A stretch of DNA of 21,249 bases from a virus, in the IMG/VR virus record IMGVR_UViG_3300033233_000180, positions 1-21,249 of that record; one strand, written 5' to 3'. The notes beneath the pieces are model-generated. The model saw only the letters and a list, made by a program, of their open reading frames with translations, made no database searches and had not been told where the DNA came from. Within the stretch, counting starts at the first letter, position 1. Every line of letters begins with the position of its first letter. Below, piece after piece: positions 3,182-11,091 of this stretch. Position numbers and translations under genes: made by a program.

Positions 3182-4144
3182 ATGCCTGATGAAACGCCAA
3201 AAGAAGATGCTCAGGATTCGATTACAGCCCTTCCCGTCGATGAGTCCATATCCCAGCACCTCCCAAAACATGCCCGAATAAAAGGCAGAGGGCGAAAATA
3301 CGTTTTATCAATACCTGCCGTCGTTGATGCCCTGATCCAGGGTCATCACACTCAGAACCAAGCGTCTCGTATTCTCGGTGTCACCGCTGCGTCGATAGGC
3401 AAGTTTATGAAGAAGCATTGTATCGACAAGTTCGGGAACGTGAATGGTAAAAGGTTTAGGCCGATTAAGATTGCAGGGCGATCACTAGCTCAACTGCGTC
3501 AGGATGAGCATGATGCCACGATGCGCAGGGCAGCAGAACGTGACATCAGTGGCAAAGCGATGGGAATGGAAAACCAAAAAGACCCCCCCCATACACCCGA
3601 TCCGAAAGCGAACGCCACCCCCCCTCCCCCCTCCAATCTTGTTACCGAGGACATTTCAAGTATCTGCCGGTACATGTTGGAGAAAGAGGTTGGACTATTG
3701 GCCGCGTGTCGTGAATTGGGTCATAAACCGACGCAGGTACATTTGTTCCTGGCGAAGAAGGGAAATGAGGCGATCAGGGAGGAATACTATGCGATTCGTG
3801 CGGCGCTTGTGGATATGTCTGTGGATAAGATGGACGAGGTTGCCGATGATTGTACGGCGATAAATTACAATGCTCAGAGAGTGCGGTTGCTGGCAATGCA
3901 GTGGAAGGCCCAGGCATTGCGGTCGGATTTGTATGGCGGGTTCAAGAAGGACAAGGATCGGATACCTCCGGGGTCTGAGAGATCCCTGACTGATGAGGAG
4001 TTGGACAGGAAGATCAATCAGCGGTTGGCTGCTTTGGATGCGATAGAAGGGCGAACCCCGAGGACAAGAACCAAGGCAGTGACTGAGGCTCCTGCTTCGC
4101 AGATATCCGGGTTGGAGACTGAGGAGGGGATAAATGATGAGTGA
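3182..4144 (+). CDS. Terminase small subunit-like protein with extra N-terminal HTH
   Basis: The protein has 320 residues and is probably the DNA-recognition subunit of the packaging motor. Residues about 155-255 (ISSICRYMLEKEVGLLAACRELGH, ending WKAQALRSDLYGG) follow the Sf6-type small terminase pattern: a short HTH, then YYAIRAALVDMSVDKMDEVADD, then Arg-Leu-x-Ala-x-x-Trp-Lys and a terminal Tyr-Gly. It also has an N-terminal segment at about 43-80 that reads as a second HTH (QNQASRILGVTAASIGKFMK). A low-complexity linker at 133-152 (DPPHTPDPKANATPPPPS), encoded by long C-tracts, joins the two halves. Sf6-type small terminases are usually under 200 residues, so this one is long. Start: GGAG 6 bases upstream, inside the palindrome CGGAGCTCCG. 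It precedes terL with two small genes between. Confidence 0.7.
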   Translation: MPDETPKEDAQDSITALPVDESISQHLPKHARIKGRGRKYVLSIPAVVDALIQGHHTQNQASRILGVTAASIGKFMKKHCIDKFGNVNGKRFRPIKIAGRSLAQLRQDEHDATMRRAAERDISGKAMGMENQKDPPHTPDPKANATPPPPSNLVTEDISSICRYMLEKEVGLLAACRELGHKPTQVHLFLAKKGNEAIREEYYAIRAALVDMSVDKMDEVADDCTAINYNAQRVRLLAMQWKAQALRSDLYGGFKKDKDRIPPGSERSLTDEELDRKINQRLAALDAIEGRTPRTRTKAVTEAPASQISGLETEEGINDE

Positions 4145-4295
4145 TACGGGAGATTTGGCGAAGATGAAGGAAGACCGCGGACTGCCGGCGTTGTTTGTAC
4201 CGACGGGGTTGTATGGGATCCCGCCTCAGTGGGCCGAGACGTACTTCGAGTTGTTCGATCAGGTCGGTGTATGTCTGGTATGGGGGCATGCGTGA
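4134..4295 (+). CDS. 53-residue hypothetical protein between terminase genes
   Basis: This short frame starts at ATGATG (4134; the second ATG at 4137 is equally possible) and overlaps the end of the small terminase gene by 11 bases. AGGAGG lies 6 to 9 bases upstream. The product starts MMSDTGDLAKMKEDRGLPAL and continues with a Pro/Trp-containing segment (GIPPQWAETYFELFDQ) that looks folded rather than random. Its stop overlaps the GTG start of the next gene (GTGA, 4292-4295). This chain of coupled overlaps is the main evidence that it is real. Function unknown; its location suggests a packaging accessory role. Confidence 0.65.
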   Translation: MMSDTGDLAKMKEDRGLPALFVPTGLYGIPPQWAETYFELFDQVGVCLVWGHA

Positions 4296-4462
4296 GCAAG
4301 GAGAAGGTCAGGATTGATACCCGATGCGAGTGGTTCAAGTTCCATCACTGCCTTGCGACGATGGCGGAAAATCATTCTAAGTTGGTTAAGTTCTGTGACC
4401 AGGACGCGGATTATTGTGCGAAGAAGTCTGGCAAGAAGGTGTTCCACGTGGAACATTCTTGA
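4292..4462 (+). CDS. Small Cys/His-containing protein upstream of terL
   Basis: This 56-residue protein uses GTG at 4292, overlapping the previous stop as GTGA, with a G-run ribosome binding site. It reads VSKEKVRIDTRCEWFKFHHC and continues with Cys44 and Cys51 upstream-numbered equivalents in KFCDQDADYCAKK. Four Cys and several His residues suggest a small metal-binding fold. An in-frame ATG at 4271 is an alternative start. The last codons (VFHVEH) are dictated by the perfect 16-bp palindrome at 4440-4455. It ends 18 bases before terL. Function unknown. Confidence 0.6.
   Translation: MSKEKVRIDTRCEWFKFHHCLATMAENHSKLVKFCDQDADYCAKKSGKKVFHVEHS
4440..4455. other. parS-like: Perfect palindrome identical to a chromosomal-type parS site
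   Basis: TGTTCCACGTGGAACA is a perfect 16-bp palindrome. It equals the bacterial parS sequence form (TGTT-N-CACGTG-N-AACA) bound by ParB/Spo0J, with the GTTCCAC half-sites known from Pseudomonas. It lies in the last codons of the small gene before terL and is the only copy I found in the window. The sequence match is direct; that ParB binds it is an inference. Alternatives are a coincidental coding palindrome or an operator for a phage regulator. Confidence 0.6.
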
Positions 4463-4480: not shown

Positions 4481-6019
4481 ATGACAGTACGTCTTTCAGA
4501 TAAGGATACGGCCGGGATGAGTCCGGCACAAGTCCGGGAGTTGAAGCGGGAACTGGAGGCGCTTCTTTCGGAGAAGGAGAACCGGGCGAAGTACCGTCAG
4601 TTCTTTTACACCTTCCCGGAGAGGGGTCCGTTCCGGCGCGAGTTGTACCGGAAACACATGAAATTCATGATGGCCGGCGCGGATTACCGGCAACGGTTGG
4701 CTTTGTGGGGTAACCGTATCGGGAAGACCCGCATGGCGGCGTATGAGAATACCTGTCACCTGACCGGGAAGTACCCTCCATGGTGGGAGGGGCATCGGTT
4801 CTATCGGCCGGTTGATATCTGGATGGTCGGCAATACCTCGATCTCTACCCGGGACATCTTGCAGAAAGAGATGTGCGGCGATCCGGCTTTGTTGCCGAGT
4901 TCGCTGGGTACCGGGATGATCCCGCTCGAATTCATCAAGAACAATCCGACCAAGAAACAGGGTGTCCCGAACGCCCTGGAAACGATCGTGGTGAAACACT
5001 TCGATGAGAATGGGGATTATGACGGCGATTCTGTCGTCACGTTCAAGTCATATGAGCAGGGCCGGAAGTCGTTCGAGGGTACCAAAAAAGACTTGATCGG
5101 ACTCGATGAAGAACCGCCGATGGACATTCATACTGAATGCCTTCTTCGTACCATGACGACCGGCGGGTTGCTGGTCCTGACTTTCACCCCACTTCAGGGA
5201 TTGACCGACGTTGTGCTCATGTACCTGCCGGGGGGCAAGATACCATCCGGACAGACCGAACTGAAGGGTTCGGTGTATGTCTCGATGGCGACCTGGGATG
5301 ATGCACCGCATCTGACAAAGAAAATGCAGGATGATCTGTGGGCGTCGATACCTCCGTTCCAGCGTGACGCTCGAAAGAAGGGTATCCCACAACTCGGGAG
5401 CGGGGCAATCTACCCGGTATCCGATGAATTGCTTGAGGTGGACCCATTCGAGATTCCCCCGCATTGGAAACGGGCGTATGCCCTCGACGTTGGTTGGAAT
5501 AAGACCGGAGCACTATGGGGCGCCCTGGACCCGGAGTCGGATATTCTCTACGTTTACTCGGAGCATTATCTCGGGGAGGCGCAGCCGGCTATTCATGCTG
5601 CGGCGATCAATGCCCGGGGGAAGTGGATCCCCGGCGTGATCGACCCAGCCGCGCGTGGCCGCTCTCAGGTAGACGGCGAACAACTCATACAGACGTACCG
5701 GGACTTAGGGATGAATATTATTCCCGCGGACAATGCGGTAGAGGCCGGACTGTATGCCGTATGGTCTCGCATGTCAACCGGAAGATTGCGGGTGTTCAAA
5801 TCACTGTCGCATTTTTGGGATGAAAAGCGCATCTATCGCCGTAATGAAAAGGGTGCGGTAGTCAAGGAATTCGATCATCTCATGGACCCGCTTAGATATC
5901 TCGTTATGACCGGGGTGAATGTCGCTTGTCAGAAACCACCGAGCGATATGATTTCCGAAGCCGGTAGGAGACTCAAATTAGTGGGAATGACTCGCCGTAC
6001 AAGCGCAATGAGCGCGTAA
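4481..6019 (+). CDS. terL: Terminase large subunit (ATPase and nuclease)
   Basis: The protein has 512 residues. It is the motor that pumps DNA into the prohead and cuts the concatemer. The N-terminal ATPase shows Walker A GNRIGKT (77-83), Walker B LIGLDEE (205-211, Asp209/Glu210) and the coupling motif TFTP (234-237). The C-terminal RNase H-like nuclease shows the three acidic positions Asp336 (ALDVGW), Asp388 (GVIDPA) and Asp469 (DHLMDPLRY). All key residues are present and the length is typical. The ATG at 4481 has AAAGGA just upstream. The protein should act with the small terminase (3182) and dock on the portal (6033). The parS-like palindrome lies 25 bases upstream. Confidence 0.95.
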   Translation: MTVRLSDKDTAGMSPAQVRELKRELEALLSEKENRAKYRQFFYTFPERGPFRRELYRKHMKFMMAGADYRQRLALWGNRIGKTRMAAYENTCHLTGKYPPWWEGHRFYRPVDIWMVGNTSISTRDILQKEMCGDPALLPSSLGTGMIPLEFIKNNPTKKQGVPNALETIVVKHFDENGDYDGDSVVTFKSYEQGRKSFEGTKKDLIGLDEEPPMDIHTECLLRTMTTGGLLVLTFTPLQGLTDVVLMYLPGGKIPSGQTELKGSVYVSMATWDDAPHLTKKMQDDLWASIPPFQRDARKKGIPQLGSGAIYPVSDELLEVDPFEIPPHWKRAYALDVGWNKTGALWGALDPESDILYVYSEHYLGEAQPAIHAAAINARGKWIPGVIDPAARGRSQVDGEQLIQTYRDLGMNIIPADNAVEAGLYAVWSRMSTGRLRVFKSLSHFWDEKRIYRRNEKGAVVKEFDHLMDPLRYLVMTGVNVACQKPPSDMISEAGRRLKLVGMTRRTSAMSA

Positions 6020-6032
6020 CAGGAGGAGTAGG

Positions 6033-8219
6033 ATGGCGGACAACACCGATTTATCAAGCGAAAACCCCAACATGGCCCTGGCCGGTGATACCCTGAGCGG
6101 AGAAATCAAGGATGAACGGGTTATTGCCGCGCATGAATGGGCAATCTATGAGGATGCCCGGGACCGAGGGCATCGTGATTATATCATCGAAGCCCGGAAA
6201 TGCCAGCGGTTCCGATGGGGCGGCGGTCGGCAGTGGGATGAAAATGATCGGATGGAGCTCGAAGCCGCGCGTCGTCCGGTGATCGAAGTCAATACCATCT
6301 TTCCCGCGATCAATGATGTGAACGGGGAACAGATCTCGACCCGTATGGACATCTCGTACCGGCCGAAGAAAAGCGGGGCGTCTCCTGAGACAGCCGACGC
6401 GCTCAAGAAATTCGCGCTTCATGTCCGGGATGACAACAACTATCCGTACAAGGAATCCACCGTTTTCGAGGACGGCATTGTCAAGCGCCGCGGGTTCTTC
6501 GAGATCAAGATGCGGTTCGATGAAAACCTGTTCGGAGAAATCGATATCAGGGACAAAGATCCGTTCGATATCATTCCGGACCCGGATGGTCAGGAATACG
6601 ATCCGAAGTCCTGGCGCTACGTAGGCGAAACGAAATGGATGTCCCTTGACGATATCGAAACTGAATTCGGCCGGGATGCCCGTCTCAAGGTGGAAGGCCG
6701 GATCATGGATCCCGGGTTCGGTCAGGATTCGGTAGCTTCGAGTGATGGTGAAGGCCGGGACAGTTTCGGCAAACAATCCATGGCGCATCGGTATTATGAC
6801 GCTACCATGGTATCCGAACATGGACAGAAGAGTGTTCGGGTTTTCTCCCGTCAGTTTTATCAACTCACCTCGCAGTGGCATTATTTCAATCCAACCACCG
6901 GGGATATCCGACCGGTGGAAGACAACAAGACCCAGGACGCGGCGCGTCTATTCGCACAGCAGAATGGCTGGACCCTCGCCCGAATACCCCGCAAGCGTAT
7001 CCGCTGGCGCGTGTCGTTCCGTGATGGTCTTCTGCATGATGAATGGAGTCCGTACAGCACCTATACAATCATCCCGTACTTTCCGTACTTCGATCGCGGT
7101 ATCACCGTCGGGCTCGTTGACAATGCGATTTCTCCCCAGGAACTTCTGAACAAGTCACTATCCTCTACGCTTCATATCGTGAACTCGACGGCGAACTCAG
7201 GCTGGCTCGTTCCGAAAGATGTCCTCACGAACATCGCCACAGGCGACTTGACCGATGTCGGAATGAAGACCGGCCTCGTGATTGAATATGACCCGAACAA
7301 GGCCGGCGGTGCTAAACCTGAGAAGATCAAGCCAAACGAAGTACCACAAGGTACCGACCGACTTATCGATCGGGCTCAGACCTATGTCGATATCGTGACC
7401 GGACGGGCGTCGACCGAGAGGGCGATGGAGGCCGGCGATTCTTCCGGTACCGCGATCGGCAAGAAGATGTTCCAGGCGAAACTTCAAATCGCCAAGCCGC
7501 TTGACAATCTTCAGCTCACTCGCAATCTGGTCGCCCGGAAATTTCTAGAATTGCTCCAACAGTATTATACGGCGGAGCGGACCATTCAGATCACACAGCC
7601 GAATGATGACGGAACCATGAACCATGTGCCTTATACGGCGAATCAGGTGACTCCGGAAGGACGTATTGTCAATGATTTGACTCTCGGGGAATATGAGATC
7701 GTAACCGAATCCGTCCCGACTCAGGCCACGTTCGATCAGAACCAGTTCACTCAGGCTCTCGAGATGAAACGCCTGAATGTCAGTATCCCGGATATGTATG
7801 TTCTGAAATATTCGACCCTTGCGGACAAGAACGATATTATCAAGGCCATTTCAGAACAGAAACCTGATCCGATGATCGAGGCGAAGATCAAGGAGATCGT
7901 AGCGAAAACGCTCCTCCTGCAATCCCAGGCAAAGGAATCAGACTCGAAGGGTACGGTCGCCGCGGTCCAGGCACAGTTCTCCGCGGTCCAGAGTGCTCAA
8001 CTCATCGCCACTATGCCGCAGATCGCCAACCTTGCCGACCAACTTCTGTTGAGCGCCGGGTTCACCGACCATGACGCGGCGCCGATCGTTCCCACTCCTT
8101 CCGGACCCGTTGCAGTCCCGGCACCGGTCGTTGCAAGGAACAACAACCCGGGGTATCCTCCGGTTCCTGCCTTGGCGGATTCAGGTTCAATGACGGGGAT
8201 TGAGGGTGGAACAGCATAA
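6033..8219 (+). CDS. Portal protein, P22 type
   Basis: The protein has 728 residues, close to the P22 portal (725). The portal forms the dodecameric ring at one capsid vertex through which DNA enters and leaves. Diagnostic parts are the N-terminal RFRWGGGRQWDENDR followed by RPVIEVNTIFPAINDVNGEQ (about 82-101), the DPFDIIPDPDG segment (about 180-190), and a long helical C-terminal region (MIEAKIKEIVAKTLLLQSQA) suited to the barrel. The extreme C-terminus is Pro/Ala/Gly-rich. AGGAGGAG precedes the ATG, 13 bases after terL, so both are surely co-transcribed. A 120-bp control region follows it. Confidence 0.93.
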   Translation: MADNTDLSSENPNMALAGDTLSGEIKDERVIAAHEWAIYEDARDRGHRDYIIEARKCQRFRWGGGRQWDENDRMELEAARRPVIEVNTIFPAINDVNGEQISTRMDISYRPKKSGASPETADALKKFALHVRDDNNYPYKESTVFEDGIVKRRGFFEIKMRFDENLFGEIDIRDKDPFDIIPDPDGQEYDPKSWRYVGETKWMSLDDIETEFGRDARLKVEGRIMDPGFGQDSVASSDGEGRDSFGKQSMAHRYYDATMVSEHGQKSVRVFSRQFYQLTSQWHYFNPTTGDIRPVEDNKTQDAARLFAQQNGWTLARIPRKRIRWRVSFRDGLLHDEWSPYSTYTIIPYFPYFDRGITVGLVDNAISPQELLNKSLSSTLHIVNSTANSGWLVPKDVLTNIATGDLTDVGMKTGLVIEYDPNKAGGAKPEKIKPNEVPQGTDRLIDRAQTYVDIVTGRASTERAMEAGDSSGTAIGKKMFQAKLQIAKPLDNLQLTRNLVARKFLELLQQYYTAERTIQITQPNDDGTMNHVPYTANQVTPEGRIVNDLTLGEYEIVTESVPTQATFDQNQFTQALEMKRLNVSIPDMYVLKYSTLADKNDIIKAISEQKPDPMIEAKIKEIVAKTLLLQSQAKESDSKGTVAAVQAQFSAVQSAQLIATMPQIANLADQLLLSAGFTDHDAAPIVPTPSGPVAVPAPVVARNNNPGYPPVPALADSGSMTGIEGGTA

Positions 8220-8224
8220 TTTTC

Positions 8225-8253
8225 TTGACAAAAGTTGTTTTTTATTATATTCA
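8225..8253 (+). promoter_or_regulatory. Candidate promoter before the scaffold/capsid genes
   Basis: A perfect TTGACA (8225-8230) is followed by an A/T-rich stretch with TATATT after 15 bases (8246-8251) or TATTCA after 17 bases (8248-8253). A second TTCTTGACAAAAG copy occurs 43 bases downstream (8266-8278), but no good -10 follows it. The location, in the only sizeable gap between portal and scaffold, suits a booster promoter for capsid genes. Spacing is not ideal. Confidence 0.45.
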
Positions 8254-8291
8254 TCTGTAAAAGGTTCTTGACAAAAGGTAAACAGACCTGA

Positions 8292-8309
8292 TCCCTGGGT
8301 TTTCAGGGA
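8292..8309 (+). repeat. Hairpin in the scaffold leader
   Basis: TCCCTG and CAGGGA form 6-bp arms around GGTTTT, 30 bases before the scaffold start. No T-run follows, so RNA stabilisation or processing is more likely than termination. Confidence 0.5.
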
Positions 8310-8339
8310 AATTATTCAACTCGTGAGGAGCATACGAAA

Positions 8340-9413
8340 ATGCCCGGTGAAATGACAGACAAGGAAAAAGAAGAACAGGAACGGATGGAGGCGGAAGAGA
8401 AGGCACAGGCAGAACAGGCCGCAAAGGAAAAGGCCACGAAGGAGCAGGAAGACCGAGGGGATGAATTTTCTCCTACGGTGGAAGACAAGGAGCTCGATGC
8501 CGCGGCACTCACCAAGATAGCAGTCGAAGACGATGACGATGCCAAGAAGAAAGCCTATGCGGATACGGCGGCAGCAGAGGCAAAAAAGAAGGAAGACGAC
8601 GCCAAGCAGGATGAGGATCTTACAGGCGTCGATGAAATTGATAAGAGAATCAAGATCCCGAAGTATCGTTTAGACCGGGAAGTCGAGAAACGTCAGAAGG
8701 TTGAAGAAGAAAATGCCCGGCTGAAAGCCTACCTCGAGGCTGTAAATAAAAGCCCGACTCCGGCGGCCAAGGACGACAAGCCCAAGGAAGAGGTAAAACC
8801 CTACGATTTCGAGGATGCCGAAAAGCGGTATGCCGATGCCTTGATCGAAGGCGACAAGGATGCGGCGGCCAAGATACGCACCGAGATCAGGAATGCGGAA
8901 GAAAAGACGAGAGAGACAAAGGACGGCGAGAAAAACGCCGAGATTGCTACCCGTCAGGCTCTCGAGAACGAGGCAGCCGCAATCGCCACGAAGATGTTCA
9001 AGGAATATCCGTTCTTTGACTCGACCGCTGCGAATCATAGCAAGCAGGCGCTGAAAGTTTTTCTCGCGGTTCGTAACGAAGCATTTAGGACGGGAGTGCC
9101 TTTCCCCCAGGCTGTTCAGCAGGCGTTCGATGAAGTGGGACCAGCATACGCGCATCTTATGGGAAAATCGGAAGATCAGGGCAAAACGCCCGAGGAGTTG
9201 GCGGCCGATAAGGAAAAGGCGAATGCGATCAAGGAAAAGCGCGCAACGGAAGAGAAGGCCAAAGCCGCGGATGCTTCCGGTAAACAGCCGGCCAATCTGA
9301 AAGGTTCTACCCCGGTTTCCGGAAAGAAGATCGAGGTCAAGGATCTTACCGACGAACAGTACGACAGTCTCCCGGCGGCAGAGAAGGCGAGACTTCGCGG
9401 GGATAACGTATGA
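8340..9413 (+). CDS. Scaffold-like coiled-coil protein
   Basis: The protein has 357 residues and is extremely rich in Lys, Glu, Ala and Asp, almost all predicted helical. Residues 1-45 (KEKEEQERMEAEEKAQAEQ) and about 115-130 (VEKRQKVEEENARLKAYLEA) are coiled-coil heptads. A more ordered part at about 218-265 contains MFKEYPFFDST and FLAVRNEAFRTGVPFPQAVQ. The end (VKDLTDEQYDSLPAAEKARL) is a charged helix, as in scaffolds whose C-terminus binds coat protein. Position between portal and coat, composition and size all fit an assembly scaffold, although no sequence family is decisive. GAGGAG lies 12 bases upstream. Its stop overlaps the next start (ATGA). Confidence 0.8.
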   Translation: MPGEMTDKEKEEQERMEAEEKAQAEQAAKEKATKEQEDRGDEFSPTVEDKELDAAALTKIAVEDDDDAKKKAYADTAAAEAKKKEDDAKQDEDLTGVDEIDKRIKIPKYRLDREVEKRQKVEEENARLKAYLEAVNKSPTPAAKDDKPKEEVKPYDFEDAEKRYADALIEGDKDAAAKIRTEIRNAEEKTRETKDGEKNAEIATRQALENEAAAIATKMFKEYPFFDSTAANHSKQALKVFLAVRNEAFRTGVPFPQAVQQAFDEVGPAYAHLMGKSEDQGKTPEELAADKEKANAIKEKRATEEKAKAADASGKQPANLKGSTPVSGKKIEVKDLTDEQYDSLPAAEKARLRGDNV

Positions 9414-9808
9414 AGATCATTCCCAAAAAAGAGGAATTGGACTTCAACAAGTATCCCGACGGGGTTCCTCCTCAAAGGAAACTCGTAATTAAGACCGATG
9501 TCAACAACGGTCTGCATAAAATTGAAGCACCCGGTCCATTCGTCCCGCCTGTCGGGATGCTCGTTGATCTGGCCGGGTTCAGATACAGGATTCAGGCACA
9601 CAGGACAAACAAGGGAGAAATTACACTCCGAGCCATTGGCAATGCCTCAAAACTGAAACGGTTCCCGCTGCATCAGGCGATACTGATGAGGTTTCAGGAT
9701 TTGAAGTCGCGTTGGTTCGGCAAGGATGAAGTCACAGAGACATCGGAAACAGTATCACCCGCGGATCTCGCACCGCCCGATTTTGTCGGTACGGATCCCA
9801 TCAGGTAG
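9410..9808 (+). CDS. Hypothetical protein between scaffold and coat genes
   Basis: This 132-residue protein starts MKIIPKKEELDFNKYPDGV and is coupled to the scaffold gene by ATGA. The central part (GMLVDLAGFRYRIQAHRTNKG followed by EITLRAIG) is a small all-beta segment. It resembles, from memory, short phage proteins encoded near the coat gene that have a Gly-x-x-Phe-Arg-Val core. A basic helix (LHQAILMRFQDLKSRWF) and an acidic, Pro-rich tail follow. Likely a minor head or assembly factor; not a proven assignment. Confidence 0.65.
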   Translation: MKIIPKKEELDFNKYPDGVPPQRKLVIKTDVNNGLHKIEAPGPFVPPVGMLVDLAGFRYRIQAHRTNKGEITLRAIGNASKLKRFPLHQAILMRFQDLKSRWFGKDEVTETSETVSPADLAPPDFVGTDPIR

Positions 9809-9975
9809 ACAGTAGAACCAAGTAACAAGTTCCGCAATACTCTTCGGCGCCATCCGATATTGGTCGTGGGAATCTCCCATGTAAGGGTTAGCGGTTCATC
9901 GCGGGGCGGCGAAAAGCCCGACAGGAAGTCAGGAAGAAATACGCGATCAACCAACTTACTTAAAGGAGAAATACC
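9809..9975 (+). other. 167-bp leader before the coat gene
   Basis: No gene is seen here. It holds a small hairpin TGGGA-ATC-TCCCA (9867-9879), a GGGC/GCCC-rich stretch and the short direct repeat CAGGAAGTCAGGAAG before the coat ribosome binding site AAAGGAG. A regulatory leader for high coat expression is possible. I see no convincing promoter. Confidence 0.35.
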
Positions 9976-11091
9976 ATGGCTTTAACAAACTTTGGCGCCC
10001 TCCAGGCCAATCAGAAAATGGTCTGGTCCCGGGATACCTGGAAGCAGGCCCGTGAAAATTCGTTTATCATGCAGAAGTTCGTAGGAACCGGCGAGAACAA
10101 CGCAATTCAGAAGATCACGGAATTGACCAAGACGGAAAAGGGCGATCGTTGCATTATTACGCTCGTCGCGGAACTCACGGGCGACGGCGGCACCGGCGAC
10201 AACAAGCGTGAAGGCAATGAAGAGGCGATGAAGCAGTACGATGAGGAAATCACCATCGACCTCATTTTCCACTCCGCCCGCAACGAAGGTAAACTTGCCG
10301 AACAGAAGTCCGTCGTGCGCTTCCGGGACAACGCCCGGGAAAAGCTCGGCAACTGGCTTGCAAACCGTATCGATCAGCTTGCGTTCCTGACGCTATCGGG
10401 CATCTCCTATTCGTACAACTGCGATGGGTCCTCCCGGACGAACAGCAACTTCCCGAACCTTTCCTTTGCAGCGGACGTTACCGCGCCCAGCACGAACCGT
10501 CATCGTCGGTGGGATGGTGTAAACGGTGTCCTCCTGGCCGGCAACACGGCGACCATGCTGGCAACTGATGTCATGTCCTACAAGGCAATCACGGCAATGA
10601 TGGCATTTGCCAAGGATCATTACATCAAGCCTCTCATGGCAGGTGGGAAAGAATACTACATCATCCTCATGAAGCCGGGTTCCTTGATGCAACTCAAGAA
10701 CGACGCCGATTACAAGAACTCAGTAGTCCAGGGTCTTCCTCGTGATCTCAAGAACCCGTTCTTTACCGGCGCTACGGTCACGGTAGATGGTGCGATACTG
10801 CATGAGCATCGTCTGGTGTACTCGACGAACGGTATTAGTTCCGGTTCAAAATGGGGCGCGGCTGGCACGGTAAACGGTACCAGGGTTCTTCTCCTCGGTC
10901 AGCAGGCGATGGGCCTTGCAGACCTCGGCGCTCCTGAGTGGGTGGAAAAGGGCTTCGAGTATGATAGTCAGCAGGGTATCAACGTCGACAAGATGTTCGG
11001 CCTTCTCAAACCTCGATTTTACTCAAACTATGACAAGTCGGTCGAGGACTTTGGCGTTCTGGCGGTCGATTTCGGGTTGCCTCAGTACTAA
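9976..11091 (+). CDS. Major capsid protein, N4-gp56/DUF4043 type
   Basis: The protein has 371 residues and forms the capsid shell (HK97-like fold in this family). The N-terminus has the family order: FGALQANQKMVWSRDTWKQA, then FVGTGENNAIQKITELTKTEKGD, then GDNKREGNEEAMKQYDEEIT, then LGNWLANRIDQLAFLTLSGI (about 121-140). A central region includes MAFAKDHYIKPLMAGGKEYY, as expected for the spine and A-domain. The start has a strong AAAGGAG ribosome binding site. It is preceded by scaffold and followed by a strong RNA hairpin and two decoration-like genes. No truncation is seen. Confidence 0.9.
   Translation: MALTNFGALQANQKMVWSRDTWKQARENSFIMQKFVGTGENNAIQKITELTKTEKGDRCIITLVAELTGDGGTGDNKREGNEEAMKQYDEEITIDLIFHSARNEGKLAEQKSVVRFRDNAREKLGNWLANRIDQLAFLTLSGISYSYNCDGSSRTNSNFPNLSFAADVTAPSTNRHRRWDGVNGVLLAGNTATMLATDVMSYKAITAMMAFAKDHYIKPLMAGGKEYYIILMKPGSLMQLKNDADYKNSVVQGLPRDLKNPFFTGATVTVDGAILHEHRLVYSTNGISSGSKWGAAGTVNGTRVLLLGQQAMGLADLGAPEWVEKGFEYDSQQGINVDKMFGLLKPRFYSNYDKSVEDFGVLAVDFGLPQY

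Follow-up and report, generated by a model that had tools for sequence, protein, structure and literature searches.

The question raised by this locus is why a virus contig carries a partition site of the bacterial chromosome directly ahead of its terminase large subunit gene (terL), and which protein would read it. The window, that is, the whole 21,249-base stretch analysed here, contains TGTTCCACGTGGAACA at positions 4440-4455 as its sole perfect 16-bp palindrome. This 16-mer matches the general chromosomal parS form TGTTNCACGTGNAACA perfectly and is identical to parS2 and parS3 of Pseudomonas aeruginosa (PMC4368675). Of ten sites, this exact sequence is the one for which the ParB of P. aeruginosa has the highest affinity in vitro, and a single high-affinity parS of the oriC-proximal cluster is enough for chromosome segregation in that species (PMC4368675). 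The initial annotation had described a perfect palindrome equal to chromosomal parS, expected by chance about five times in a million, within the final codons of a small gene and 25 bases before terL. These statements held: the recomputed expectation for an exact occurrence in the window ranged from 4.7e-6 (order-3 Markov) to 6.7e-6 (order-1), close to the first estimate, and the site encodes V-F-H-V-E-H, followed by S and a stop, at the end of a small open reading frame (ORF). Further copies, which had also been considered, are absent from the window even with up to three mismatches permitted.

The gene order around the site is a probable terminase small subunit gene (terS), two small ORFs of which the second bears parS, terL, the portal gene, a scaffold-like gene, and the major capsid gene (Table 1). 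The G+C content at the three codon positions of the parS-bearing ORF (0.46/0.33/0.68, rotated to its frame) resembles that of the other genes of the phage, and thus this ORF may be a real gene. Searches for a homologue of it were negative in IMG/VR and in phage records, and the sole match among the loci compared was at the level of chance (E=0.09). Where the junction was readable in relatives of the terminase large subunit (TerL), the upstream gene mostly overlaps or abuts terL; the stretch of about 340 bp that holds the two small ORFs and parS, for which no relatives were detectable, therefore has the appearance of a lineage-specific insert.

Table 1. Features of the window around the parS site and the basis on which each was assigned.
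Feature	Position	Strand	Basis
Probable terminase small subunit, Sf6-like	3182..4144	+	PF20901, E=5.8e-5, 23.5 bits; under the curated cut-off of 27
Second small ORF of the terS-terL insert, 53 aa	4134..4295	+	ORF call; no family match
Small ORF, 56 aa, GTG start, ending ...VFHVEHS*, last codons formed by parS	4292..4462 (about)	+	No homologue detected
Perfect host-type parS, TGTTCCACGTGGAACA	4440..4455	.	Sequence scan; identity to parS2/parS3 (PMC4368675)
Terminase large subunit, single ORF	4481..6019	+	phrog_2 / phrog_5653
Portal protein	6033..8219	+	phrog_156, E=1.1e-93
Scaffold-like gene, where relatives have scaffold	8340..9413	+	Weak tblastn similarity and synteny
Major capsid protein	9976..11091	+	phrog_334, E=4.3e-81; 60% identity to Acidovorax phage AP1

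The TerL of the window is undivided, whereas that of many relatives is split into an ATPase half and a nuclease half (positions 7846-8634 and 9992-10738 in contig L005; also contigs L007 and L018). The break falls at the same point, near residue 255/260 of the window TerL, and unrelated genes lie in between; a search of six of these split loci against Rfam gave no match. In L007 (8759-10537), the P-loop region of the ATPase half also appears to be interrupted by an intein-like insert (CITPWTYLETPDG ... VTHHNSGKT).

The frequency of such sites in phage isolates was assessed by a BLAST search of 50,697 phage records with the 18-mer A-parS-T (E up to 10, at least 16 contiguous bases). This C form was found in 108 records and the T form TGTTTCACGTGAAACA, which is the Bacillus/Actinobacteria form, in 315; these counts take in matches one base off parS (Pseudomonas phage Bitten, a shifted match, was counted without a full parS), and they are numbers of records and not of events. 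Many of the records are clonal relatives, and therefore the counts of 108 and 315 far exceed the numbers of independent lineages. Two control palindromes of equal length, scored identically, were found in 5 (core CAGCTG) and 0 of the 50,697 records. The occurrence of parS in phage genomes thus far exceeds what chance would produce. The variant also matches the host of the phage. The C form was led by phages of Mycobacterium (27) and Pseudomonas (20) and by Microviridae (15), and the T form by phages of Listeria (87), Microbacterium (62), Arthrobacter (34), and Gordonia (25), with further occurrences in Bacillus and Lactobacillus phages; the C form accordingly goes with Pseudomonas, and the T form with the latter six genera. 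Escherichia and Salmonella, which rank among the most numerous phage hosts, were not among the ten largest groups of C-form or T-form records. Enterobacterales are not known to have a chromosomal ParABS system. Klebsiella phages contributed 10 C-form records, in which the match mostly lies within a coding region of a giant phage. Between one and five parS-type sites are present in each of the Pseudomonas phages XD2, Lana, ventosus, SYP, UAVern, and KoPa-4, with up to five in SYP; in KoPa-4 (vB_PpuM-KoPa-4), they are located at positions 61012 and 66560. The initial annotation had regarded a host-type site as notable on the ground that phages use their own partition sites; such sites are indeed scarce per genome, but they recur in many phage lineages.

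The T form was also seen in multiple copies in small genomes (MN882551.2, PQ006097.1, and other T-form matches). In bajarodino virus 3, a 6-kb record, it occurs at 12 strand-wise places, which correspond to about six copies.

Environmental sequences gave a similar excess. In IMG/VR, whose contigs may contain host flanks, at least 120 stretches contained the 16-mer and at least 120 the 18-mer, and two control 16-mers gave 2 and 54 matches. Since 33 of the 120 listed stretches with the 16-mer contain the 18-mer, the number of stretches with the C-form 16-mer is estimated to be at least about 436. Against 2-54 for the controls, this number indicates that most phage parS instances are not due to chance. 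Among the matches listed, after removal of identical contexts and with genes called by a simple ORF caller, parS was intergenic in 36 of 94 cases (9.8 expected) and in 36 of 62 (7.7 expected), and a control palindrome in none of 35. The intergenic sites among these matches showed no bias toward divergent, promoter-containing gaps (14 observed, 15.7 expected), and many lay within 10 nt of the 3' end of a gene, which argues that the site is used for itself and not as a promoter operator.

Some IMG/VR contigs carry more elaborate arrangements. Five perfect copies of parS are spread over several kilobases in contig L136 (4324-10458) and three in contig L220 (2039-6196), and in contig L081 the palindrome is extended to 32 bp (9784-9815, TGCAAATATGTTCCACGTGGAACATATTTGCA).

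Comparison with relatives of the window gave a different picture of the individual site. With up to one mismatch permitted, parS was absent from 31 IMG/VR relatives of TerL in the sequence stretches compared, and from 11 whole records among them; of the window genes tested, these relatives share only terL. A first portal scan of IMG/VR yielded no relatives, whereas an alignment of the capsid protein did, and none of 80 further relatives of this head module contained a perfect parS. The portal and capsid proteins are related to those of Acidovorax phage AP1 (60% for the capsid), which lacks parS, of environmental phages, and of the Pseudomonas Kochitakasuvirus (35-49%). Kochitakasuvirus is the closest isolate clade to the window that has parS. 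Its members R18, KPP25, and CRPAP1904 each contain exactly one perfect TGTTCCACGTGGAACA, at a different place from that in the window, namely the gap between the scaffold and capsid genes. In R18 and KPP25, the site directly follows the scaffold stop codon and just precedes a terminator-like hairpin, after which the capsid gene begins. Contig L094 of IMG/VR, whose portal, scaffold, and capsid genes are likewise related, carries a single parS in a divergent intergenic region; this contig was found via parS and is therefore not independent evidence. Judged from these genomes, parS appears to have been gained and lost at varying places among the relatives of the window, which argues against a positional pac site or operator. 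A conserved element of either kind at terL was rejected, as the relatives have no parS at that position next to the terminase genes; the homologous position is thus not conserved, and the site is either absent or found elsewhere.

No match to ParB (TIGR00180) or to a ParA-type ATPase (PF13614), the pair that the initial annotation had proposed to look for, was found in the 21-kb window; the window is a genome fragment, and such a pair may lie elsewhere in the genome. The same search of 12 compared records (six Pseudomonas phages, the Kochitakasuvirus records, AP1, and L094) was likewise negative for these canonical families; the well-known genomes included as positive controls were positive. 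No ParB was found in the parS-bearing related phages with complete genomes. Where parS sites exist without par genes, the ParB of the host would be the obvious reader. P. aeruginosa ParB is the ParB of the Kochitakasuvirus host, and it may not be that of the host of the window phage. Around chromosomal parS, ParB can spread over up to about 20 kb (PMC5521831).

These results suggest that the window site is a functional host-type parS that would load host ParB in trans, a reading to which a probability of about 0.62 is assigned. After the phage DNA enters the cell, host ParB-CTP dimers would bind at the 16-mer, form closed clamps, and slide across the neighbouring kilobases, so that the phage genome would gain a partition complex and become a target for host ParA and SMC. 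The likeliest benefit would be that phage DNA is positioned, compacted, or made to persist on the nucleoid, for instance during slow infections or pseudolysogeny. CRPAP1904 has been described as lytic and without an integrase (PMC13340246); therefore, the stable segregation of a prophage can be at most a partial explanation. The reading is favoured by the excess over control palindromes, the match between variant and host, the copy elsewhere in Kochitakasuvirus, and the lack of ParA/ParB in the tested records. On the other hand, the window site is single, lies within a small ORF and not between genes, and is absent from most relatives. Recruitment of host ParB had been among the roles proposed in the initial annotation, and it is the one best supported by the enrichment, the host-matched variants, and the records without ParA/ParB; a packaging or local operator role, also proposed there, is less likely, given the non-conserved position by terL, the different location in head-gene relatives, and the missing bias toward promoter regions.

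The main rival for the window instance is chance, by which the 16-mer would have arisen by accident inside a small coding ORF and would have no function. It stays the main rival because the site lies inside an ORF and shows no conservation among relatives. Many windows were read, which inflates rare matches, and a control palindrome with the same half-sites accounted for the 54 IMG/VR matches, of which none of those evaluated was intergenic. However, an expectation of only 5e-6 in the window, the estimated C-form stretches that far outnumber the controls in IMG/VR, and the copy owned by the related Kochitakasuvirus clade make an accident unlikely. A decoy function, in which replicated phage sites would titrate host ParB and so disturb host segregation or SMC loading, would fit the several sites of phages such as SYP, the presence of parS in the reportedly lytic CRPAP1904, and the finding that ParB imbalance disturbs P. 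aeruginosa (PMC5521831). The single site carried by the window and by KPP25-like phages would nevertheless be a weak titrator before replication, and this function is improbable.

Regulation of terL or late-operon transcription by ParB or another factor bound at the site has still less probability, although the site lies just ahead of terL and an excess of ParB strengthens the repression of promoters beside parS3 and parS4 in P. aeruginosa (PMC5521831). There is no promoter-like match at the window parS on the + strand, a stop codon lies ahead of the KPP25 site and a terminator-like hairpin beyond it, and the intergenic phage sites show no bias toward divergent gaps, many of them being close to gene 3' ends. 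A packaging (pac) or terminator-hairpin role of the palindrome is highly improbable: the region between terS and terL holds pac in some phages and parS RNA can make a 7-bp stem, but in related phages parS is either missing or remote from the terminase genes, and an RNA hairpin or terminator was rejected since the fold is no better than that of shuffled sequences (z -1.19) and no U-run follows.

The parS site itself is already known, as are phages that encode partition systems of their own. Plasmid prophages such as P1 (parABS) and the extrachromosomal prophages of mycobacteriophages (PMC7157519) resemble the window in having a centromere-like site on phage DNA. The ParA/ParB of such prophages are phage-encoded and act on distinct sites, whereas the window site is of the host's type and no par gene was found in the contig. 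With chromosomal ParABS systems, the window shares the identical 16-bp sequence, but its copy lies on a phage contig between terminase genes, with no oriC or parAB operon anywhere near and without cognate genes on the contig. The hijacking of XerCD-dif by phages (PMC8987985) is similar in that a chromosome-maintenance site of the host is carried by the phage and served by a host protein in trans; that system acts by recombination and integration, whereas the mechanism proposed here is ParB loading. Among open-licence papers (bioRxiv was outside the search), none was found that describes enriched, host-matched copies of host-type parS in phages lacking par genes, which is weak evidence of absence.

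The window may be one instance of a widespread pattern. The chances are about even that host-type parS has been acquired convergently in phages of ParABS-bearing bacteria, and that those without par genes recruit host ParB in trans; this pattern would span tailed dsDNA phages, ssDNA Microviridae, and phages reported as lytic. If host ParB is indeed loaded in trans, a lone parS in metagenomic data would be no mark of a chromosome or plasmid origin, and phages would exploit the chromosome-segregation machinery of their hosts without encoding it, as some use XerCD.
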